64,000 nt of DNA, taken from Thalassospiraceae bacterium LMO-JJ14 (GTDB lineage Bacteria; Pseudomonadota; Alphaproteobacteria; Rhodospirillales; Casp-alpha2). How positions within the stretch are numbered: the stretch's first letter is position 1; every line of letters begins with the position of its first letter. This document shows, piece after piece, positions 52,550 to 63,544 of the stretch. Made by a program: the position numbers and the translations under genes. The stretch spans positions 2,790,001 to 2,854,000 of the forward strand of contig CP134604.1 of the NCBI GenBank assembly GCA_021555105.2. Direction: 5' to 3'. The notes under the pieces are model-generated. The model ran no database searches and had not been told where the DNA came from. It worked only from the letters and a program-made list of their open reading frames with translations.

Positions 52550-52611
52550 ATGGTACATGTTGTGGGCCGATTCGACCAGCTTTTATTGTCCCATCCCACA
52601 GCAACGACTTT

Positions 52612-52661
52612 CCAGGGCGTGATGCCCAACACAAATCCAGGGCGTGATGCCCGACACAACA
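52612..52661. repeat. 25-bp tandem repeat in the leader of the VOC gene
   Basis: Two head-to-tail 25-bp units, almost identical, ending 20 bp before the start codon. Each contains GGGC-GTGAT-GCCC, a small hairpin. Position and symmetry suggest a regulatory site at DNA or RNA level. Confidence 0.7.
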
Positions 52662-52681
52662 TAGATTTCAGGAGCTTAATC

Positions 52682-53233
52682 ATGGCTAAAAAAGTTGCCC
52701 CGGTGCCGAAAGGCTATCGCACCATTACCCCGTATCTGGTCGTTCGCGGCGCCGATGCCGCGCTGGCCTACTACGCCGATGTGTTCGGCGCCGAAGTTCT
52801 GTCGCGCGTTTACGCCGAAGACGGTGTCACCGTTCTGCATGCCGAAATGAAGATCGGCAACTCGATGGTCATCGTTTCCGACGAAATGCCGGCGTTCGGC
52901 ATCTATTCGCCGTTCGCCTATGGCGGTTCGGGCGCGACACAGCACCTGTACCTGGCGAACGTCGACGAGATCTGGGAAAAAGCCGTCGAAGCCGGCTGCA
53001 CCGTGCTGGTGCCGCTCGCCGACACCTTCTATGGCGAACGTTTCGCCAAGGTCGTCGACCCGTTCGGTCACATCTGGTCGATGTCGAAGCGCATCCCGGC
53101 CCAGAAACCGGAAGACATCAAGGCCCAGACCCAGGCCGAGGGCTTCTCGATCTATGAGCCGGTCGGCAACCGTGAAGACCAGCCGTATCCGACGGCCGAT
53201 GCCGATGTTTCCGGCAAAACAGAAGCCGCCTGA
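52682..53233 (+). CDS. VOC (glyoxalase/PhnB-like) superfamily protein
   Basis: A 183-residue VOC protein of the PhnB-like subgroup. The fold opens TITPYLVVRGADAALAYYADVFGAEVLSR and closes FYGERFAKVVDPFGHIWSMSKR, with a 30-residue polar tail. VOC proteins bind a metal or a small ligand and include lyases, dioxygenases and resistance proteins. AGGAG lies 7 nt before the ATG. A 25-bp tandem repeat is in its leader and a clear terminator follows, so it is a single-gene unit. Function unknown. Confidence 0.82.
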   Translation: MAKKVAPVPKGYRTITPYLVVRGADAALAYYADVFGAEVLSRVYAEDGVTVLHAEMKIGNSMVIVSDEMPAFGIYSPFAYGGSGATQHLYLANVDEIWEKAVEAGCTVLVPLADTFYGERFAKVVDPFGHIWSMSKRIPAQKPEDIKAQTQAEGFSIYEPVGNREDQPYPTADADVSGKTEAA

Positions 53234-53316: not shown

Positions 53317-54633
53317 ATGACCGATAACAAATCGCTCAACCAACGCCGTGAAGCCGCAACGCCGCGCGGCGTCGGTGTCGCTACGCAGGTTTATGCCGAC
53401 CGTGCCGAAAACGCCGAACTGTGGGATGTCGAAGGCAAGCGTTATGTCGACTTCGCCGGCGGCATCGCCGTTCTCAACACCGGCCACCGCAACCCCACCG
53501 TGATGGCCGAAGTTCAGAAACAGCTCGAGCGTTTCACCCACACCGCTTATCAGGTCGTTCCCTACGAGCCCTATGTCGAACTTGCCGAAAAACTCAACGA
53601 GCTGGCGCCCGGCGACACGCCGAAGAAAACCCTGTTTGTGACGACCGGCGCCGAAGCCGTCGAGAACTCGATCAAGATCGCGCGCGCCCACACCGGCCGC
53701 TCGGCGGTGATTGCATTTTCCGGCGCGTTTCACGGCCGCACCATGATGACCATGGGGCTGACCGGCAAGGTCGATCCCTACAAGCGCGGCTTCGGTCCGA
53801 TGCCGGCCGGCATTTATCACCTGCCGTTCCCGATGCCGATGCACGGCGTCAGCGCACAGGATTCCATCGATGCCCTGCACCGTCTGTTCAAGTCCGACCT
53901 GGAACCGGAACAGGTCGCGGCGATCATTCTCGAGCCGGTTCAGGGCGAAGGCGGTTTTTATATCGCGCCGAAGGAACTCGTTCAGGAACTGCGCGCCGTC
54001 TGCGACAAATACGGCATCTGCCTGATCGCCGATGAAGTCCAGACCGGGTTCGCGCGGACCGGCCGTCTGTTCGCATCCGAATACTGGGCCGCCGACTGGG
54101 GCGTGGAACCGGACATGATCACCACCGCCAAGTCGCTGGCCGGCGGCTTTCCGCTTTCCGGCGTTGTCGGCAAGGCGGACATCATGGATGCCCCCGCCCC
54201 CGGCGGTCTCGGCGGTACCTACGGCGGCAGCCCGATCGGCTGCGCGGCGGCGCTCGGTGTCCTCAAGGTCATCGAGGAAGAACAGCTTCTCGGCCGCAGC
54301 CGCATTCTCGGCGAACGCCTCATCGAACGCGTTCAGAAAATGAAGGCGCGTCCAGACACGCACCCGATCGGCGACATTCGCGGTCTCGGTGCCATGGTCG
54401 CGTTCGAGCTGGTAACGGAAAAAGGCACCAACACGCCGGACGCCGACGCCACCAAGGCACTGTGCGCCAAAGCGCTTGAACACGGCCTGATCCTGCTGTC
54501 GTGCGGCGTCTACGCCAACACGATCAGGATCCTGGTGCCGCTGACCGCATCCGACGCCATCGTCGACGAGGGCCTCGATATCATCGAGCGCTGCCTCGCC
54601 GAACTCGGCACCTCGGCGGCTGCCGCTGAATAA
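53317..54633 (+). CDS. gabT: 4-aminobutyrate--2-oxoglutarate aminotransferase
   Basis: A 438-residue class III PLP aminotransferase of GabT type. Visible: RNAENAELWDVEG-like opening (YADRAENAELWDVEG), FVTTGAEAVENSIKIAR, AFHGRTMMTMGLTGK, IADEVQTGFARTG and the PLP lysine in TTAKSLAGGFPLSGV (K272). It converts 4-aminobutyrate (or 5-aminovalerate) to the semialdehyde. In this place it fits the end of a putrescine or agmatine breakdown route: the decarboxylase, amidase and ligase genes follow on the same strand. Confidence 0.9.
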   Translation: MTDNKSLNQRREAATPRGVGVATQVYADRAENAELWDVEGKRYVDFAGGIAVLNTGHRNPTVMAEVQKQLERFTHTAYQVVPYEPYVELAEKLNELAPGDTPKKTLFVTTGAEAVENSIKIARAHTGRSAVIAFSGAFHGRTMMTMGLTGKVDPYKRGFGPMPAGIYHLPFPMPMHGVSAQDSIDALHRLFKSDLEPEQVAAIILEPVQGEGGFYIAPKELVQELRAVCDKYGICLIADEVQTGFARTGRLFASEYWAADWGVEPDMITTAKSLAGGFPLSGVVGKADIMDAPAPGGLGGTYGGSPIGCAAALGVLKVIEEEQLLGRSRILGERLIERVQKMKARPDTHPIGDIRGLGAMVAFELVTEKGTNTPDADATKALCAKALEHGLILLSCGVYANTIRILVPLTASDAIVDEGLDIIERCLAELGTSAAAAE

Positions 54634-54638
54634 GAATA

Positions 54639-54666
54639 CCCGGATTCCCCATGTGGGGATTCCGGG
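54639..54666 (+). terminator. Hairpin after gabT
   Basis: A 12-bp stem with one central mismatch (54639-54650 against 54655-54666) and ATGT loop. No T-tract follows, so it may only attenuate or protect the gabT message. Confidence 0.45.
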
Positions 54667-54741
54667 CCTAGCTTGACCTGAAGGTCGCAGCACGCGACCA
54701 TTGTGGAGTAATTTTTTGATGGCCAAAAAGGTCTTTTGTAT

Positions 54742-55698
54742 ATGACGCCCTTCGCGATTGCCGGTGTGCAGATGCACGTATCTGCCACCCATGAAAACGT
54801 CACCGCGATGTCGCACCGTATCGATCATGTGATGGTGCGCTTTCCGTGGGTACAGATGATCGTTTTCAGCGAACTGGCGCCTTACGGGCCTCTGACCGGC
54901 AATCATCCCGAGAGTCTCGAACCGGCCATCGACGTATTCCGTGAAGCGGCAATACGCCATAACGTCTGGGTGCTGCCGGGGTCCATGTTCGAGCGTTCCG
55001 AAGCCGGGCTGCATAACGTTGCCACGGTCATCAATCCGCAAGGCGAGGTTGTTGCCAAATACGCCAAGATGTTTCCGTTCCAGCCGTACGAATCCGGTGT
55101 CGAGGGCGGCACCGAGTTCTGCGTCTTCGATGTCCCGGGCGCCGGACGTTTCGGGGTTTCGATCTGCTATGACATCTGGTTCCCGGAAACCACACGGACC
55201 CTGGTCTCGATGGGTGCGGAAGTCCTTCTGCACCCGGTGCTGACCGGCACCATCGACCGCGACATCGAGCTTTCCATCGCGCGTTCCACCGCCGCGATGT
55301 TCCAGACCTATATCTTCGATATCAACGGCCTCGGCCCGGGCGGCACGGGGCGCTCATGCGTCGTCGATCCGTCCGGCACGTTCCTTTATCAGGCCGCCGG
55401 CCAGGAAGAAGTGATCCCGGTCGAAGTCGATTTCGATCTGGTCCGCCGTCAGCGCGCCGTCGGGCTGCGCGGTCTCGGCCAGACACTGAAGAGTTTCCGC
55501 GACCGCAACGCCTATTTCGGGGTCTACGACCCGGCGATCCACGACCCGAGCTATCTGTACAGCCTGGGCCCGCTCGAGATGCCGACACAAGGCACGCAGG
55601 AAGGTCTGCACGCATCGTCCCCCGCCGACATCACAGGCCACCGCGGACACAGCAATATTATGGTGCTCGACACCCACAAAAGCGCGAAAGACGCATAA
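54742..55698 (+). CDS. Carbon-nitrogen hydrolase (nitrilase superfamily amidase)
   Basis: A 318-residue nitrilase-superfamily enzyme with the Glu-Lys-Cys triad: E44 in VFSELAPYG, K109 in AKYAKMFPF and C142 in GVSICYDIWFPE. Members split C-N bonds of amides, carbamoyl amines or nitriles; N-carbamoylputrescine amidase is one. A 50-residue C-terminal extension has no known domain. Just upstream an 8-codon reading frame (54720-54746) overlaps the ATG by 4 nt and has its own GGAG, so a leader peptide may couple translation. Between gabT and an Orn/Lys/Arg decarboxylase, an amine-linked amide is the likely substrate. Confidence 0.87.
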   Translation: MTPFAIAGVQMHVSATHENVTAMSHRIDHVMVRFPWVQMIVFSELAPYGPLTGNHPESLEPAIDVFREAAIRHNVWVLPGSMFERSEAGLHNVATVINPQGEVVAKYAKMFPFQPYESGVEGGTEFCVFDVPGAGRFGVSICYDIWFPETTRTLVSMGAEVLLHPVLTGTIDRDIELSIARSTAAMFQTYIFDINGLGPGGTGRSCVVDPSGTFLYQAAGQEEVIPVEVDFDLVRRQRAVGLRGLGQTLKSFRDRNAYFGVYDPAIHDPSYLYSLGPLEMPTQGTQEGLHASSPADITGHRGHSNIMVLDTHKSAKDA

Positions 55699-55731
55699 AT
55701 AAAATGAAAAGCCACAGGGAGCTAAAAAATC

Positions 55732-58476
55732 ATGCCGGACGAAGGAGCGCAGGCTAAGGGCGTATCGCTGGGTCGATACTACAACGCAACCCAGTTACGC
55801 ATCGATACCTGGAACAAGCTGAAGAACATCACCCTGCGCCTCGTCGAGGGGCGCGAACGGGCGGATGATTACGCCAAAGCGCGCGCGTTGCTGGATGAAC
55901 TGGCGCCGTTCGAGACCTATTGGGCGTTCCCGGGCCTGCAAGATTTCCGCCAGCTTTATCATCTTGTCGAAAGCCGTGACGCGCGGACCCTGGGCCGTGC
56001 CGTATCGCGCATCGTCGGCGCCATGATGAGCGGCACGTACCGGCGCAAGCACGTCAATCTGGGACTGCACGGCGATGAGGAGCATCTCGACGACGAAGAG
56101 ATGGAGTCGCCCGAGGAACGCAACCGCCGCCGTCCCTATTTCGAGGTTCTGTTCGTCGACGACCTGAACTATGCGCAACAGCACCAGCAGCGCGAAGGCC
56201 TGACGGCCATGCGCCGCGAGGAAGACCCGTTCACCTATGAGCCGGTTTTCGTCTCGAGCTTCGAAGACGCAATCATTGCCTCGCTTTTCAATCACAACAT
56301 TCAGGCGATCGTCATCCGCTTCGGCTTTCCGTTCAAATCCATGAACGACCTGCCGGTGCTGAGCCGCTATCTGAAACTGGCGCACGTCGATGACGTCGAC
56401 TCCCTTGAGCCGCAGGACTACGGCGCCGTGCTGGCCGACGTGATTGCCCGCATCCGCCCCGAACTGGACCTTTATCTGGTCACCGACCAGAACGTCGAGG
56501 ATGTCGCCGGACGCGTCGGCGATTGCTGCCGCCGGATTTTCTATAACCAGGAGGATTTCCTGGAACTGCATCTGAACATCCTGCGCGGCGTCGATCAGCG
56601 CTATCAGTCGCCGTTCTTCACGGCGCTCAGGAACTATGCCAAGCAGCCGACCGGCGTGTTCCATGCCCTGCCGATTTCGCGCGGCAAGTCGATTTCCAAA
56701 TCGAACTGGATCCGCGACATGGGCGAGTTCTATGGCATGAACATCTTCCTTGCCGAAACGTCGGCGACATCGGGCGGGCTGGACTCGCTGCTGGAGCCGC
56801 ACGGTCCGCTCAAGAAAGCACAGGAACTGGCGTCCAGGGCCTTCGGGTCGCGCAAGACGTTCTTCGCCACCAACGGCACCTCGACCTGCAACAAGATTGT
56901 CGTCCAGGCCATCGTGCGGCCCGGCGACATCGTGCTGGTCGACCGCGACTGTCACAAGTCGCACCACTACGGGATGGTGCTGTGCGGCGCCCACGTCGTC
57001 TATCTCGACAGCTATCCGCTCAGCGAATATTCCATGTACGGCGCCGTGCCGCTGCGTGAAATCAAGAAAGAGCTGCTGGAACTCAAGGCCGCCGGCAAGC
57101 TCGACAAGGTGCGCATGCTTTTGCTCACCAACTGCACCTTCGACGGACTTGTCTATAATGTCGAACGGGTCATGGAAGAATGTCTGGCGATCAAGCCGGA
57201 CCTGGTCTTTTTATGGGATGAAGCATGGTTCGGCTTTGCCCGTTTCGGCCCGACCTATCGCCAGCGCACCGGCATGTACCAGGCCAAGCACTTGCGCGAA
57301 AAATTCAAGTCCGAGGAATACCGCGAAGAATATGCGGTCCATAAGGCCAAGCTGGACGAAGCCGGTGACGACATCGACACGCTGCTCGACATGCGCCTGA
57401 TGCCGGACCCGAATCAGGCGCGGGTCCGCGTTTATTCCACGCAATCGACGCATAAGACCCTGACCTCGCTCCGCCAAGGATCGATGATCCATGTGCACGA
57501 TCAGGATTATTCGTCGAAGGTCGAAGAACCGTTCCACGAAGCGTTCATGACGCATACCTCGACATCGCCGAACTACCAGATTCTGGCCTCGCTCGACGTC
57601 GGCCGGCGTCAGGTCGAACTGGAAGGGTTCGAACTGGTACAAAAGCAGGTCGAAATGGCCATGGTGCTGCGCCAGAAGGTCCGGACCCATCCGCTTTTGT
57701 CGAAATACTTCAAGATCCTCACCGTCGGCGACATGATCCCCGCGGCATACCGCCAGTCTGGCATCGAAAGCTATTACGAACCCGACAAGGGCTGGAACGA
57801 TATCTGGGAAGCCTGGGCGGGGGACGAATTCGCCCTCGATGCGACACGGATTACGCTGCTCGTCGGCGGCACCGGTCTTGACGGCGACACCTTCAAGAAT
57901 GACGAGTTGATGGACAAGTACGGCATCCAGATCAACAAGACGTCACGCAACACCGTACTGTTCATGACCAATATCGGCACGACCCGCTCGTCCATCGCGT
58001 ATCTGATCGAGGTTCTGGTCAAGATCGCCACGGAACAGGACGAACGCCTCGAGGACATGAACGCGCCGGAGAAAAAGGCGCACGAGAAAAAGGTCAACGC
58101 GCTGCTCAACGAACTGCCGCCGCTGCCCGATTTCTCGCGTTTCCACAATGCATTCCGGCCCGACCCCAAGGGGGATACCCGCGAAGGCGTGATGCGCGAT
58201 GCGTATTTCCTCTCCTACGACGAGGATTCCTGCGAATACCTGACGATGGAAGACGGCAGCATCGACGACGCCATGAACGCCGGCCGCGAGGTCGTCTCGG
58301 CGACGTTCATCATCCCCTACCCGCCCGGCTTCCCGATCCTCGTGCCGGGTCAGGTCGTCAGCAAGGAAATCATCGGATTTTTCCGCGCCCTCGACGTCAA
58401 GGAAATCCACGGCTACCGCCCGGACCTGGGGCTTCGCGTGTTTACCGAAGCCGCCCTCAAGGCACGCCTTAAATAA
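55732..58476 (+). CDS. Large PLP-dependent Orn/Lys/Arg decarboxylase
   Basis: A 914-residue fold-type I decarboxylase. The PLP lysine is K575 in STQSTHKTLTSLRQGS; the upstream part of the active site reads SATSGGLDSLLEPHGPLKKAQ, FFATNGTSTCNKIVVQAI, DRDCHKSHHYG and FLWDEAWFGFARF. The C-terminal domain is of the usual type (IPYPPGFPILVPGQVV). In E. coli AdiA (755 residues) the lysine is K386, so this enzyme has about 190 extra residues before the core, partly charged (HGDEEHLDDEEMESPEERNR). It should make agmatine, putrescine or cadaverine; which one is not clear. GGGAG precedes the ATG. Confidence 0.88.
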   Translation: MPDEGAQAKGVSLGRYYNATQLRIDTWNKLKNITLRLVEGRERADDYAKARALLDELAPFETYWAFPGLQDFRQLYHLVESRDARTLGRAVSRIVGAMMSGTYRRKHVNLGLHGDEEHLDDEEMESPEERNRRRPYFEVLFVDDLNYAQQHQQREGLTAMRREEDPFTYEPVFVSSFEDAIIASLFNHNIQAIVIRFGFPFKSMNDLPVLSRYLKLAHVDDVDSLEPQDYGAVLADVIARIRPELDLYLVTDQNVEDVAGRVGDCCRRIFYNQEDFLELHLNILRGVDQRYQSPFFTALRNYAKQPTGVFHALPISRGKSISKSNWIRDMGEFYGMNIFLAETSATSGGLDSLLEPHGPLKKAQELASRAFGSRKTFFATNGTSTCNKIVVQAIVRPGDIVLVDRDCHKSHHYGMVLCGAHVVYLDSYPLSEYSMYGAVPLREIKKELLELKAAGKLDKVRMLLLTNCTFDGLVYNVERVMEECLAIKPDLVFLWDEAWFGFARFGPTYRQRTGMYQAKHLREKFKSEEYREEYAVHKAKLDEAGDDIDTLLDMRLMPDPNQARVRVYSTQSTHKTLTSLRQGSMIHVHDQDYSSKVEEPFHEAFMTHTSTSPNYQILASLDVGRRQVELEGFELVQKQVEMAMVLRQKVRTHPLLSKYFKILTVGDMIPAAYRQSGIESYYEPDKGWNDIWEAWAGDEFALDATRITLLVGGTGLDGDTFKNDELMDKYGIQINKTSRNTVLFMTNIGTTRSSIAYLIEVLVKIATEQDERLEDMNAPEKKAHEKKVNALLNELPPLPDFSRFHNAFRPDPKGDTREGVMRDAYFLSYDEDSCEYLTMEDGSIDDAMNAGREVVSATFIIPYPPGFPILVPGQVVSKEIIGFFRALDVKEIHGYRPDLGLRVFTEAALKARLK

Positions 58477-58532
58477 TCAAAATCGCGGCAAAAATCGCCG
58501 CCGCTTAAAAGTTAAACAGGGAGAATAAAACA

Positions 58533-60188
58533 ATGGCCAAAGCCACGACGAAAAAAACCGCCGCGAAGAAAGCCCCGGCTAAGAAAGCAGCCGCCAAGAA
58601 AGCGCCAGCAAAGAAAGCCGCTGCAAAAAAAGCAGCCGTTAAAAAGGCGCCCGCCAAAAAGACAACCGCCAGGAAAGCCCTGGCAAAGAAAGCCACGGCA
58701 AAGAAACCGGTGGCGAAAAAAGCAGCCGTGCGCCGTCCGCGCCAGAAGAAGCTCAAGAATATTTCGGAAATCCGCCGCTTCTTCCATCGCAACGAGGATC
58801 CGATCTTCTTCATCAGCGCGACGAACTTCAACCTGCTCGGCATTGACGAGTGGTGCCGGAACTTCAAGTACATCTGCTACATCGATTGCTACGACGGGCG
58901 TCACCCGAATGTCTTTGTACCGGACGAAGCGGCGCATCCTGAATTCGAATCGATCGAAGACATCGTCGCCTACCTGCTCGAGCACAAGGAAGTGATCGAC
59001 TACGTCCGCTCCAAGGGCGGCAAGCCGAAAGCCGTGTTCCTGATGTTCGACAAGCGCGTCGAGAAAGTCTGCAAGGAACTGGGTCTGGAAATCTGGTTCC
59101 CGAAAGCAGCGCTTCGCGGCGCCATCGACGACAAGATCGAAACCGTGCGCATCGGGAACAAGGCCGGTGTGCCCTCCGTTCCCAACACGCTCGGCAAGAT
59201 CGACAGCTGGGCCGACCTGCAGAAGCTTGCCAAGCCGCTCGGCAACGATCTGGTGCTGCAATCCGCGTTCGGCGACAGCGGCCACACCACGTTCTTCATC
59301 AAGAGCGAAAAAGACTATCGCCGCTACGAGCACGACATCGTCGGTCAGGGCGAAATCAAGGTCATGAAGCGGATCGACTGCCGCGGCTCGGCGATCGAGG
59401 CCTGCGCCACGTCGAAGGGGACCATCGTCGGCCCGTTGATGACGGAACTGGTCGGCTTCAAGGAACTGACGCCGTATCGTGGCGGCTGGTGCGGTAACGA
59501 AATCTTCCCCGAAGCCTTCGATGCCAAAATCCGCAAGAAAGCCCGCGAATACACGTTCCAGTTCGGGAACCAGCTGGTCAAGGAAGGCTACCGCGGCTAT
59601 TTCGAATTGGACTTCCTGATCGATCAGAACGACGGCAACATCTATCTGGGCGAGTGCAACCCGCGTGTCACGGGCGCCAGCTCGATGACCAACCACGCCG
59701 CGTTCGCCCACGCCGATGCGCCGCTGTTCCTGTTCCACCTGCTGGAATTCTCCGGCGTGCCGTTCGACATCGACGTCAACGAATTGAACAACCGCTGGGC
59801 CGATGCCGACAATATCGACGGCTGGTGCCAGATGGTCATCAAACACACCGAGGACAACGTCGACATCATCACCGAAGCGCCGGAATCCGGTATCTGGAAA
59901 CTCGCCAAGGACGGTAGTGTCAGCTATGACCGCTTCGACTACCACCGCCGCGCGGTGGAAAGCGAAAACGAGGCGTTCTTCCTGCGTATCTCCGACAAGG
60001 GAGATTACCGTTACGAGGGCGCTGATCTCGGCATCCTGATCACCCGCGGCCGGGCGATGGACGACAAGTTCAAGCTGACCAAGCGTTCCAAGCAGTGGAT
60101 TGCCGGGATCAAGGCGAGCTACAAGGCGAAGCCGCTGCCCAAGGCACAGGCAGTGGAAATGTCGGATCCTGCGTTCAAGATTCTTTGA
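58533..60188 (+). CDS. ATP-grasp ligase with histone-H1-like Lys/Ala-rich N-terminus
   Basis: A 551-residue protein in two parts. Residues 1-74 are a run of AKKA/AKKP-type repeats, as in histone H1 tails and bacterial H1-like proteins. Residues 80-500 form an ATP-grasp enzyme: [19 protein letters not shown] (ATP lysine/phosphate region), [27 protein letters not shown] with metal ligands about E358, E374 and N376. ATP-grasp enzymes join a carboxylate to an amine through an acyl phosphate. It is 56 bp after the decarboxylase and just before a C45 hydrolase, so the product amine is a probable substrate. Automated labels would call it a biotin carboxylase, but no biotin partner is here. Confidence 0.85.
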
Positions 60189-60219
60189 CCGTTGCCCTGT
60201 TTGGGCGTAACGAGGATGC

Positions 60220-61209
60220 ATGGATTTAGTTTTCGAAACGGTAAGTGAGGCCAAGGCCGGCCCCAAGTGGCAGTCTTTGTTCGCGACTCTGTGGCCCGCT
60301 TACCAGCAATGGTTCATGTCCGATGGCATCGAGGCCCGCCAGACGTATCTGGCGGGTCATCGGGCCTTCAAGAAATACATGCCCGAAATGCTGCCGATGT
60401 ACGCGCATCTCTGCGAGCTTGCCGGCGGCGGCGATCTTGCGTCGCGGTTTCTCAGCTTTTACTGCCCGCCGGCCTATCTGTCGGGCTGCTCGCAGGCGAT
60501 CTGGCCCGGTAACGAGCCGATGCTGGTGCGCAACTACGATTACGCGCCGGCGCTCTGTGACGGGCTGATCCTGCATTCAAAATGGCACGATCGCTGGGTC
60601 ATGGGCATGTCGGACGGCCTGTTCGGGCTTGTCGACGGTATCAACGACCGCGGCCTTGCGGTGTCGCTGACCTTCGGCGGACGGACCATCGTCGGCGACG
60701 GCTTCGGCGTGCCGATCATCCTCAGATACATTCTGGAATTCTGCGACACCGCCGGGGACGCCATCGCCGCACTGCAACGCATCCCCTGCCACATGACCTA
60801 TAACGTCACCGTGGTCGACAAGCAGGGCAAGTATGCGACCGTCTATCTGGCCCCGGATCGAAAGGCCATCGTGACCGACCAGCGCGTCGCCACCAATCAC
60901 CAGGAACGCGTCGAATGGCACCGCCATGCCCGCGCCACGGCGACGGTCGAACGCGAGCGGTTTCTGTTGCAGCGCCTGACGCTGCACGACGAACCGGCCG
61001 ACCGCTTCATCGGTGCTTTCCAGAAACCGCCGTTGTATTCGACCGCCTTCGGGCGCGGTTTCGGCACCGTTTATACGGCGATATACTGGCCCAAGCGCGG
61101 CATCGCCGAATATCGCTGGCCGGGCGTGCACTGGACACAACGCCTCAAGGCCCCGCTCGAAGGGCAACGGCACATCCGCTTCCCGATGTCCGATGAAGCG
61201 CTCGCGTAG
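60220..61209 (+). CDS. C45-family (acyl-CoA:6-aminopenicillanate acyltransferase-like) N-terminal-nucleophile hydrolase
   Basis: A 329-residue Ntn-fold protein. C45 enzymes cut themselves before a cysteine that then serves as nucleophile; here the matching site is YLSGCSQAIWPGNEPMLVRNYDYAP, with Gly89-Cys90. The following MSDGLFGLVDGINDRGLAVSLTFGGR and TYNVTVVDKQGKYATVYLAP blocks are also of the family. C45 relatives either transfer acyl groups to amines or hydrolyse such amides (Drosophila Tan splits N-beta-alanyl-dopamine). It is 31 bp after the ATP-grasp gene, which suggests one makes and the other breaks the same bond type. Confidence 0.85.
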   Translation: MDLVFETVSEAKAGPKWQSLFATLWPAYQQWFMSDGIEARQTYLAGHRAFKKYMPEMLPMYAHLCELAGGGDLASRFLSFYCPPAYLSGCSQAIWPGNEPMLVRNYDYAPALCDGLILHSKWHDRWVMGMSDGLFGLVDGINDRGLAVSLTFGGRTIVGDGFGVPIILRYILEFCDTAGDAIAALQRIPCHMTYNVTVVDKQGKYATVYLAPDRKAIVTDQRVATNHQERVEWHRHARATATVERERFLLQRLTLHDEPADRFIGAFQKPPLYSTAFGRGFGTVYTAIYWPKRGIAEYRWPGVHWTQRLKAPLEGQRHIRFPMSDEALA

Positions 61210-61287
61210 TGTCATAAAACTTTGATGATTTCCCCGCTGTCCTGATTTGTTAAGGTGTGTCTTGGTTTAGCCGGACGGAAGCGATCA

Positions 61288-61941
61288 TTGAAAAAAGTCT
61301 ACAAGCGCATCTTCAAGGATTTCACGGCCAACGTCGTGCCGCTGGACTGTGGCGAGAAGTGCCGTCATCTGAACGACGGAATCCCGGTCTGCTGCGATAT
61401 CGAACAGGCCGTGCCGATCATGGACAAGCGCGAGTTCAAGCTTTTGCGCGGACGTTCCGATCTGTGGCGCAAGTACCGGCCGCCGAACAAGCATGGCGAG
61501 GAACTGGTTGAATCCCTGCATCACGATTGCGTGGCGGCGGAATGCAAGGGGGCGCAATTCTGCGAGCGCGATAACCGCTCGCTGTCATGCCGGGCCTTTC
61601 CGTTCTTTCCCTACATCACCAGGGAAGGCGATTTCATCGGCATGGCGACGTATTGGACGTTCGAGGACCGCTGCTGGGTGATCAGTAACCTGAAAAAGGT
61701 CACGCGCGAATTCATTGCCGAATTCCATGACGTGTACGAACGCCTGTTCGAGAAGAAATCCGACGAATTCGAGGTCTTCAAGGACTACTCGGCGACCATG
61801 CGGCGCGTGTTCTCACGTAAGGGCCGGCCGATCCACATCATCGACCGCGACAAGAAATTCCATGCCATTCTGCCCAAGGGCGCAGGCATGCACCGGGTCA
61901 AGAAAAGCGAACTGCCGACGTTCGAGCCCTACGCGGAATAG
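61288..61941 (+). CDS. Cysteine-cluster (YkgJ-like) protein
   Basis: A 217-residue protein with many ordered cysteines: CGEKCRHLNDGIPVCC near the N-terminus, then HHDCVAAECKGAQFCERDNRSLSCRAFPFFPYI. This is the look of the YkgJ/zinc- or iron-chelating cysteine-cluster family. The start is uncertain: TTG 61288 has GGAAG 6 nt upstream, while GTG 61255 would add 11 residues. The role is unknown; relatives have been linked to metal binding and to modification of proteins. It closes the amine cluster on this strand. Confidence 0.8.
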   Translation: MKKVYKRIFKDFTANVVPLDCGEKCRHLNDGIPVCCDIEQAVPIMDKREFKLLRGRSDLWRKYRPPNKHGEELVESLHHDCVAAECKGAQFCERDNRSLSCRAFPFFPYITREGDFIGMATYWTFEDRCWVISNLKKVTREFIAEFHDVYERLFEKKSDEFEVFKDYSATMRRVFSRKGRPIHIIDRDKKFHAILPKGAGMHRVKKSELPTFEPYAE

Positions 61942-61943
61942 GA

Positions 61944-61996
61944 TTTCCCCCTCTCCCGGCGCGCAAGCACGCCACCCTCTCCCCAGGGAGAGGGGC
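61944..61996. repeat. Folded intergenic repeat, family A (copy 3)
   Basis: CT-rich element with CCCTCTCCC (61975-61983) and its complement (61986-61994). It lies between convergent genes, as copy 1 does. Confidence 0.65.
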
Positions 61997-62001
61997 TGGC
62001 C

Positions 62002-63390
62002 CTACTTCACCTCAGCGTAGACACTCTCCAGCGCCTTCGAGACGGCGCCGACGATTTCGTCGACCTCGCCCCTGGTGATGCAGAACGGCGGCGCGAAGCC
62101 CAGCATGTCGCCGTGCGGCATGGCGCGTGCGATGACGCCGTTTTCCAGCGCCGCTGCGGACATCTTCGCACCGACCTTGAGCGCCGGATCGAAGAACGTC
62201 TTTGTGTCCTTGTCGGCAACGAACTCGATTGCCGCCAGCAGACCCTCGCCCCTGACTTCGCCGACCATCGGGTGGTCTGCGAACGCGGCGCGCAGGCTTT
62301 CCTGAAAATAGGCCCCGGTTGAACGCACGTTGGCGATCATGTCCTCGTTCTCGATCAGAGTCAGGTTGGCGAGACCGGCGGCGGCCCCGATCGGGTGCGC
62401 CGAATAGGTCCAGCCGTGGCCGATCGGTCCGATATCTTCCGATCCCCGGTCGAGAATTTCACAGACGCGTTCGCTCAGGATCGACCCTGACAGCGGCGCA
62501 TAGGCGCTGGTCAGGCCCTTGGCGATGGTGATGATGTCCGGCTTCATGCCGTAGTGTTCGGAACCGAACCACGACCCCAGACGGCCAAAGCCCGTCACCA
62601 CTTCGTCGGCGATCAGCATCACGTCGTGCTTGTCGAGCACCTTCTGGATCGCCGGCCAGTAGCCCGCGGGCGGCGGGATCAGCCCGCCGGTTCCCATGAA
62701 CGGTTCGCCGATGAAGGCCGCAACCGTATCCGGGCCTTCGGCGACGATCATCGCGTCGAGCTTGGCGGCGCAGTCGTCGACGAACGCCTGCTCGCTCATG
62801 CCGTCCGGGGCGAATTTCCAGTAATGCGGACATTGCGTGTGTAGCACCTTGTCCAGCGGCAGGTCGAATGCCTTGTGGAACAACGGCAGACCGGTGAGGC
62901 TGCCGGTCATCAGCCCGGAGCCGTGATAGCCGCGGTCGCGCGAGATGATCTTCTTTTTTTCCGGCCGGCCGAGCACGTTGTTCATGTACCAGACGAGCTT
63001 GATGTTGGTTTCGTTGGCATCCGATCCGGACAATCCGAAATAGACCCGGCTCATGTGATCAGGGGCCAGTTCGACGACTTTCGCGGCGAGGCGGATCGAG
63101 GCTTCGGTGCCGTGCCCGACATAGGCGTGATAGTACGCCAGCTTGTGCGCCTGTTCGGCGATGGCGTCGGCGACTTCGCTGCGCCCGTAACCGATATTGA
63201 CGCAATAAAGACCGGCAAACGCATCGAGGCTCTTTTTCCCGTCACGGTCGGTGATGTAGACCCCCTTGCCGCTTTCGATGACACGGGTCGGCGTGGTGCC
63301 GTTGGCGTGTCCCTTGATGTCCGAAGACGCATGCACGAAATGCGCCCGGTCCAGGGTTTCAAGTTCGTCCATGTTGCGGCGCTCGGTCAT
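62002..63390 (-). CDS. Class III aminotransferase, omega-amine/polyamine type
   Basis: A 462-residue PLP aminotransferase resembling SpuC-type putrescine/beta-alanine:pyruvate aminotransferases. Seen: GVYITDRDGKKSLDAFAGLYCVNIGYGR, YFGLSGSDANETNIKLVWYMNN, RDRGYHGSGLMTGSLTG, IADEVVTGFGRLGSWFGSEHYG and the PLP lysine in ITIAKGLTSAYAPLSG. It takes the terminal amino group from a diamine or amino acid to pyruvate. ATG 63390 follows GAGGAGG; an upstream in-frame ATG has no SD. It faces the amine cluster from the other side and may supply its transamination step. Confidence 0.87.
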   Translation of the reverse strand: MTERRNMDELETLDRAHFVHASSDIKGHANGTTPTRVIESGKGVYITDRDGKKSLDAFAGLYCVNIGYGRSEVADAIAEQAHKLAYYHAYVGHGTEASIRLAAKVVELAPDHMSRVYFGLSGSDANETNIKLVWYMNNVLGRPEKKKIISRDRGYHGSGLMTGSLTGLPLFHKAFDLPLDKVLHTQCPHYWKFAPDGMSEQAFVDDCAAKLDAMIVAEGPDTVAAFIGEPFMGTGGLIPPPAGYWPAIQKVLDKHDVMLIADEVVTGFGRLGSWFGSEHYGMKPDIITIAKGLTSAYAPLSGSILSERVCEILDRGSEDIGPIGHGWTYSAHPIGAAAGLANLTLIENEDMIANVRSTGAYFQESLRAAFADHPMVGEVRGEGLLAAIEFVADKDTKTFFDPALKVGAKMSAAALENGVIARAMPHGDMLGFAPPFCITRGEVDEIVGAVSKALESVYAEVK

Positions 63391-63544
63391 AACAGCCTCC
63401 TCGGATAATTCGTTCACGCCGCTTGATAGCGGCTATGGCGCAGGACTTACAACCCCCCTGCCGCTGTTATTTATCCCGAGGGGCATCTATGGTTTAGTGA
63501 AGCCCACGACACCCCACCTATGGCCCCTCGACGGAGAAAAAATT

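Follow-up and report, generated by a model that had tools for sequence, protein, structure and literature searches.

In Escherichia coli, PuuA and PuuD add and remove gamma-glutamyl groups (PMC9397018), and in insects the release of beta-alanine from N-beta-alanyldopamine is performed by Tan, which carries the Pfam domain PF03417 (PMC10194958). Among the pyridoxal phosphate (PLP)-dependent decarboxylases, Glu526 of the lysine decarboxylase LdcI has been postulated to bind the distal amine of the substrate (PMC5607190), and the structure of Rv2531c of Mycobacterium tuberculosis has been solved (PDB 9n0n, 9n0o) while its activity is still undetermined (PMC12910592). The present analysis concerns an operon of Thalassospiraceae bacterium LMO-JJ14, located in a stretch of 64,000 nucleotides (contig CP134604.1, positions 2,790,001 to 2,854,000; hereafter the window) that corresponds to 2.79-2.85 Mb of a single-contig genome of 3.9 Mb. 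The operon encodes a carbon-nitrogen (CN) hydrolase, a large decarboxylase (hereafter DC), an ATP-grasp protein and a C45-family hydrolase. These four genes constitute a conserved unit, of which the GABA (4-aminobutyrate) aminotransferase gene gabT is a frequent companion. They are almost certainly one functional unit and probably form one metabolic pathway that has not been studied so far.

A conserved core of four genes

Protein identities in the window were assigned from Pfam and NCBIfam profile matches with the family cut-offs applied. The first core gene (54742..55698, + strand, as are the other three) encodes a nitrilase-fold amidase of the CN_hydrolase family (PF00795, 2.5e-25), and the second (55732..58476) encodes DC, a 914-residue PLP decarboxylase of the Orn/Lys/Arg type with the aspartate aminotransferase (AAT) fold (PF01276, 1.9e-75). 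The third is an ATP-grasp gene of the NF005096 family (PRK06524, 'biotin carboxylase'), whose whole open reading frame (ORF) spans 58533..60188 (756 bits against a cut-off of 684) and whose ligase core spans 58749..60188. The fourth (60220..61209) encodes a C45-family N-terminal-nucleophile (Ntn) amidase/acyltransferase (NF040521, 175 bits against 85; PF03417, 4.9e-29). The 4-aminobutyrate--2-oxoglutarate aminotransferase gene gabT precedes them on the same strand (53317..54633; TIGR00700, 592.4 bits against 506.65), and the gaps from gabT through the CN hydrolase, DC and ATP-grasp genes to C45 measure about 108, 33, 56 and 31 bp.

With the ATP-grasp gene as anchor, relatives were taken from sampled genomes and from a scan of named genomes, which returned at least 571 ATP-grasp relatives, the best 80 being kept; the nearest named relative among the matches listed belongs to a metagenome-assembled genome, 'Rhodospirillales bacterium' (93%). 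The 102 loci considered include the window itself (L042) and a few same-contig duplicates (e.g., L033/L064, L040/L117, L059/L094). C45 lies beside the ATP-grasp gene in 100 of these loci, DC also in 100 (97 when coverage is judged more strictly) and the CN hydrolase in 90, and the absence of a core gene mostly reflects a contig end. When all four core genes are present on one strand (88 loci), the order is CN-DC-ATPgrasp-C45 in 83, where the gaps have medians of 55, 24 and 14 bp; three of the remaining five loci show CN-ATPgrasp-C45-DC and two are interrupted. Core linkage thus survives rearrangement, since these orders keep the genes together, and the core stays while other flanking genes vary. 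Among 398 genomes sampled evenly across the phylum, 11 contain the ATP-grasp family and 17 contain DC, all 11 being among the 17; the hypergeometric p value of this co-occurrence is 1.4e-17 (3e-16 without the window's genome), a value that genome kinship makes optimistic. The first-pass annotation had made its reading depend beforehand on the genes being neighbours in related genomes, and this was searched for and found, beyond the Alphaproteobacteria that it had named, to include loci recorded as Gammaproteobacteria and Cupriavidus. Two loci stand somewhat apart: L193 carries an ATP-grasp relative (45%) with no DC, C45 or CN hydrolase nearby, in one genome, and the contig of L125, labelled Oceanobacillus sp. 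HTM 045, has the operon at 72% identity to the window, under an assembly name that is probably wrong.

The companions of the core in the 102 loci are gabT (38), a TAXI-TRAP transporter (36), a PuuR-like XRE-cupin regulator (26) and a UspA protein (24). In the window, a class III aminotransferase of the PRK07482 family, AT3 (62005..63417, - strand; NF005684, 803 bits against 687), faces the operon, and a gene for a Cys-rich protein (61255..61941, + strand; no Pfam or NCBIfam match) is placed between C45 and AT3. The gene identities, the tandem arrangement and the opposing AT3 described in the first-pass annotation are all borne out by the profile matches. Its inclusion of two aminotransferases in the pathway set is not supported: AT3 is within reach of the core in only 7 of the 102 loci, namely those of the window's genus and two Pseudomonadota loci outside the window's class (the AT3 neighbours in L057 and L058 are 59% identical), and was rejected as a core member, being mostly lineage-specific, while gabT is a companion. 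The Cys-rich gene, which the first-pass annotation had passed over and which is restricted to the genus (5/102 loci), was likewise rejected and is probably not core. A VOC/glyoxalase-family gene (52595-53233) lies immediately 5' of gabT, as it does in 10 other loci. A promoter scan of the operon gave one promoter-like site against about three expected by chance and was uninformative, and a terminator scan gave no pattern marking the operon ends.

Catalytic residues and predicted folds of the core enzymes

The AlphaFold2 (AF2) model of the ATP-grasp core (predicted local distance difference test score, pLDDT, 88) matches biotin carboxylase, PurK and PylC with tied Z values of 23-24 at 9-16% identity, and fold comparison therefore does not discriminate between these functions. 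More is told by the ATP-grasp motif E302-x-N304-P-R306-x-T308-G-A310 (59652..59678, + strand), aligned with pyruvate carboxylase. The metal-binding residues Glu302 and Asn304 are retained, while T308 (101/102 loci) and A310 occupy the columns of the Gln and Glu of the carboxylase motif NPRIQVEH, which are catalytic residues of biotin carboxylase. Neither a biotinyl carrier nor a carboxyltransferase was recognised by Pfam or NCBIfam among the operon proteins. Because the Gln/Glu pair is replaced and neither partner was recognised in the operon, the database name appears wrong, and an amide-forming ligase is the more likely identity from the aligned residues. A role as a genuine subunit of biotin carboxylase, which its passing of the NF005096 cut-off and its fold in common with biotin carboxylase might suggest, is highly improbable in view of the same two observations. 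In the window, the protein starts with a Lys/Ala-rich, histone H1-like tail (58533..58748, + strand; PF07382, 3e-09, residues 3-73, below cut-off). Such tails, of 65-72 residues, are found in only part of the ATP-grasp family, also in L034-L038 and L190, and were rejected as a general family feature since they occur in some lineages only; Lys-rich starts are also seen on a GabT (L129) and on an upstream protein (L067).

DC is the sole PF01276 protein in the window's genome. Its residues 14-910 match Rv2531c over the full length (E about 1e-264), whereas LdcI, AdiA and ornithine decarboxylase (ODC) match over the core only. The PLP-binding Lys575 (codon 57454..57456, + strand), in an SxHK motif aligned with the THK motif of lysine decarboxylase, and the PLP-binding Asp496 (DEAW) are invariant in 92/92 operon DCs. 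The substrate pocket differs from that of the basic amino acid decarboxylases in the segment Asn735 to Arg739 (NKTSR; 57934..57948, + strand), as aligned with LdcI, the AspT-linked relatives described below and Rv2531c: Asn735 occupies the position of LdcI Glu526 in 92/92 operon DCs, and Arg739, four residues further, is equally invariant (92/92) where LdcI has Pro530. Because the acidic Glu526 equivalent is replaced, free Lys, Orn or Arg is, as inferred from the alignment, a doubtful substrate, though not an excluded one. The earlier suggestion that the ligase acts on the amine made by the decarboxylase is not supported by this, nor by the occurrence of the ATP-grasp, C45 and CN hydrolase genes without DC in three loci.

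Relatives of DC in six genomes that have no ATP-grasp gene keep the Asn and Arg pair. In five of them (L161-L165; large alphaproteobacterial genomes, DC 47-49% identical), antiporter-like ORFs adjoin the DC relative, and two antiporter ORFs of L161 are of the AspT family (TIGR03802, 376 and 535 bits against a cut-off of 547), an arrangement that suggests a decarboxylation/antiport pair for some amino acid. In L165, a neighbour of the DC relative resembles, by eye only, an aspartate 4-decarboxylase. In the mycobacterial protein Rv2531c, the Asn is kept and Arg739 is replaced by Ile. SMa0680 and SMa0682 of Sinorhizobium meliloti, which were also considered, are other annotated decarboxylases for which no tie to the DC family was made.

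The C45 protein is a predicted Ntn amidase/acyltransferase by domain, fold and Cys nucleophile. Its model (pLDDT 92.8) is nearest in fold to isopenicillin N acyltransferase (2x1c; Z 29.7, root-mean-square deviation 3.2, 302 aligned residues, about 15% identity) and next to NAAA (Z 24.2), relatives found by the fold search where phmmer against the PDB gave no match. The predicted nucleophile Cys90 (codon 60487..60489, + strand), identified by conservation, is invariant in 99/99 sequences. In the CN hydrolase, the Glu-Lys-Cys triad (window codons 54871-54873, 55066-55068 and 55165-55167) is invariant in 90/90. This protein reaches no NCBIfam equivalog cut-off: its nearest models, aguB and formamidase, each give about 70 bits where more than 400 would be required. 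N-carbamoylputrescine amidase (AguB) was accordingly rejected as its identity (TIGR03381, 70 bits against 410).

These features recall the insect black-ebony-tan cycle, and it is conceivable that DC converts Glu to GABA or Asp to beta-alanine, that the ATP-grasp enzyme couples the product to an amine or amino acid, that C45 releases it and that GabT disposes of the surplus. The reversed charge that the DC pocket shows against the basic amino acid decarboxylases (Asn735 for Glu, and Arg739 in addition), the AspT aspartate/alanine-type antiporters that adjoin close DC relatives, the presence in Tan of the same Pfam domain as in C45 and the proximity of GabT would all suit such a cycle. We nevertheless consider it unlikely, as the arginine/ornithine genes that replace DC in three loci (L169, L172 and L176) and the ureohydrolases of six loci point to guanidino/ornithine chemistry, and Arg739, whose carboxylate binding is only putative, is not kept in the mycobacterial relative.

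Genomic context and a proposed pathway

Three lines of context, namely gabT, PuuR-like regulators and genes resembling succinate-semialdehyde dehydrogenase (SSADH), point at GABA. The PuuR-like XRE-cupin proteins reach 133 bits where the PuuR model demands 211. Directly downstream of DC in L057 and L058 lies a gene for an SSADH-like dehydrogenase (595-608 bits against 646), which is in turn followed by a homologue of AT3. Other loci point at arginine or ornithine. On the plasmids of L169, L172 and L176 (annotated Shinella zoogloeoides and Roseateles sp. XES5, plus the unannotated Sinorhizobium sp. RAC02), DC is absent and the genes for ATP-grasp, C45 and CN hydrolase are embedded in an arginine/ornithine-to-GABA operon that also encodes Lrp, an amino acid permease, an agmatinase-family hydrolase, an aldehyde dehydrogenase, a D-amino acid dehydrogenase, an ornithine-racemase-like protein, RidA and a 5-guanidino-2-oxopentanoate decarboxylase (PRK07524, 737 bits against 500). 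An S. meliloti homologue of this keto-acid decarboxylase prefers the ornithine-derived keto acid (PMC7268258). The operon of L172 ('Roseateles sp. XES5', UNVERIFIED_ORG) is 91-97% identical to that of Shinella zoogloeoides, and its label is doubtful. Three loci whose core includes DC (L095, L188 and L190) likewise have ureohydrolase genes next to that core. The window's own genome carries five ureohydrolases and an SSADH elsewhere, and a search of it returned no keto-acid decarboxylase above cut-off and no other decarboxylase of the OKR family; the rest of an arginine route is therefore possible in this organism but is not linked to the operon.

We tentatively propose, at somewhat less than an even chance, that the unit serves a pathway from an arginine-family amino acid to GABA in which the ATP-grasp enzyme adds, and C45 removes, an acyl group. 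The scheme starts from the observed gene identities, conservation of the unit, catalytic residues, predicted folds and genomic context, and its substrates, step order and flux direction are all putative. Arginine or ornithine, perhaps as an acyl derivative, would enter the pathway, and the ATP-grasp enzyme would join a small carboxylate to an amine-bearing intermediate through an amide bond. The chain would be shortened by DC in most loci and, in the plasmid variant, by the racemase, dehydrogenase, keto-acid decarboxylase and aldehyde dehydrogenase. C45 would then cleave the amide to give GABA, following the logic of PuuA and PuuD with unrelated enzymes, while the CN hydrolase may remove a second amide or carbamoyl group or salvage a side product, and GabT together with succinate-semialdehyde dehydrogenase would consume the GABA. 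Among readings that put the conserved ligase and the conserved hydrolase to joint use, this add-and-remove scheme is the simplest.

Several observations weigh against this proposal. On the plasmids, the route from arginine to GABA seems to need no ligase to be complete. Next to the window operon there is no gene of the PuuR-like, SSADH or ureohydrolase type. The Asn735/Arg739 pair need not signal an acylated substrate, since the AspT-linked DC relatives that lack ATP-grasp and C45 share it; the mycobacterial relative has the Asn without the Arg. The full mechanism is kept tentative because relatives of DC with Asn and Arg exist without the ligase and because the plasmid route needs none. In a more specific version, which we hold to be possible but somewhat unlikely, the ATP-grasp enzyme would first place an acyl group on the distal amine of ornithine, arginine or a derivative; the chain would next be shortened by an acyl-amino-acid decarboxylase, and C45 would free GABA. 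If acylation came before decarboxylation, it would be understandable that DC has lost the cation-binding Glu and gained an Arg. If this were true, DC would have a specificity new to the Orn/Lys/Arg decarboxylase fold, with Asn735 and Arg739 as its signature, and would act within a previously undescribed route built from parts unrelated to PuuA and PuuD.

The transporters found near the core, TAXI-TRAP in 36 of the 102 loci and peptide transporters (L167, L174), fit the uptake of a ready-made amide equally well. An exogenous amide of arginine or ornithine could be imported and cut by C45 and the CN hydrolase, and the freed amino acid turned into GABA by DC or by the keto-acid route, leaving the ATP-grasp enzyme a side role such as acyl recycling. 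The presence of two unrelated amide hydrolases within one operon and of dipeptide ATP-binding cassette (ABC) transporters beside C45, in L167 and on rhizobial plasmids (there with an amidase and a serine hydrolase), would suit such uptake. It remains rather unlikely, however, as the ATP-dependent ligase, although strictly conserved, would have no evident task in it. Nor can an imported substrate be the common bond of the family, because different lineages have different types of transporter and the window's near relatives showed none next to the core. As an observation of its own, DC, ATP-grasp and C45 occur on plasmids of Rhizobium leguminosarum, R. beringeri and S. meliloti (L168, L170, L171, L174, L175 and L177). 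Next to them are nif/fix genes or radical-SAM genes for ribosomally synthesised and post-translationally modified peptides, and genes for a Glu/Leu/Phe/Val dehydrogenase, a dipeptide ABC transporter, an amidase, an RpiR regulator and a serine hydrolase. Splitting or truncation affects some of the copies, and the set looks like a symbiosis-linked island for synthesis and breakdown.

The two halves of the unit are separable, since ATP-grasp, C45 and CN hydrolase occur without DC and DC occurs without them, beside AspT antiporters. One could thus imagine linked catabolic genes that share no acyl-amine intermediate, each enzyme dealing with a side product of its own and the ligase with some metabolite that has no relation to the DC product. 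We regard this as distinctly unlikely, for tight co-occurrence with short gaps, through rearranged orders and across many Pseudomonadota, would be hard to keep without a shared pathway.

The operon occurs widely among Rhodobacterales and other Pseudomonadota, both in roseobacters, which are recyclers of marine organic nitrogen, and on symbiotic plasmids of rhizobia. If its function were defined, three families whose names are misleading or empty ('biotin carboxylase', 'C45 family peptidase' and 'carbon-nitrogen hydrolase family protein') would gain a substrate, and there would be a testable lead for the orphan decarboxylase Rv2531c.

Comparison with known systems

The first-pass annotation had stated that no described route with this gene set is known to it; none was found in the literature searched, whose coverage is limited in that most subscription journals are missing. 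Among the closest known systems is the conversion of arginine or ornithine to GABA via a 2-keto acid (AruI, guanidinobutyraldehyde dehydrogenase and ureohydrolase), part of the CATCH-N network (PMC7268258), whose plasmid versions in L169, L172 and L176 contain the ATP-grasp, C45 and CN hydrolase genes. The passages of the CATCH-N account that were consulted do not mention these three enzymes (PMC7268258), and the window operon differs from this route in having DC and gabT instead.

At the level of single enzymes, DC shares with LdcI, AdiA and inducible ODC (OKR_DC) the AAT-fold PLP core, the SxHK lysine and the DEAW aspartate, but has Asn at the Glu526 equivalent, about 50 extra residues inserted ahead of the PLP lysine and a longer N-terminal region. 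Rv2531c is a full-length homologue that includes this extra N-terminal region and differs by its Ile in place of Arg739. The C45 protein has in common with isopenicillin N acyltransferase the modelled fold and a predicted autocatalytic Cys, and with Tan the domain PF03417. The ATP-grasp protein shares its fold with biotin carboxylase, PurK and PylC and lacks the catalytic residues of the carboxylase.

The Puu system (puuPADRCBE) resembles the operon in its ATP-dependent ligase, amide hydrolase, GABA aminotransferase and likely GABA end product; a PuuR-like protein that scores below the PuuR cut-off accompanies 26 of the 102 cores, with none found beside the window operon. The analogy with Puu drawn in the first-pass annotation gains support from the PuuR-like regulators, GabT, the SSADH-like genes and the ureohydrolases found in the loci of relatives, while the conjugates on which ligase and hydrolase would act are putative. 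Likewise, its suggestion that the ATP-grasp and C45 enzymes replace a PuuA-type ligase and PuuD agrees with a motif unlike that of biotin carboxylase and with an isopenicillin N acyltransferase fold and nucleophile, and remains putative as to substrates. The differences are nonetheless clear: the operon's only ligase belongs to the NF005096 ATP-grasp family and not to the glutamine-synthetase-like family of PuuA, its amide hydrolases are C45 (PF03417) and CN_hydrolase proteins and not of the PuuD type, and the window operon has a decarboxylase and a CN hydrolase, with no PuuB-like oxidase recognised in it. As both its ligase and its hydrolase come from other families, the operon does not belong to the Puu system, although it would function in a partly similar way.

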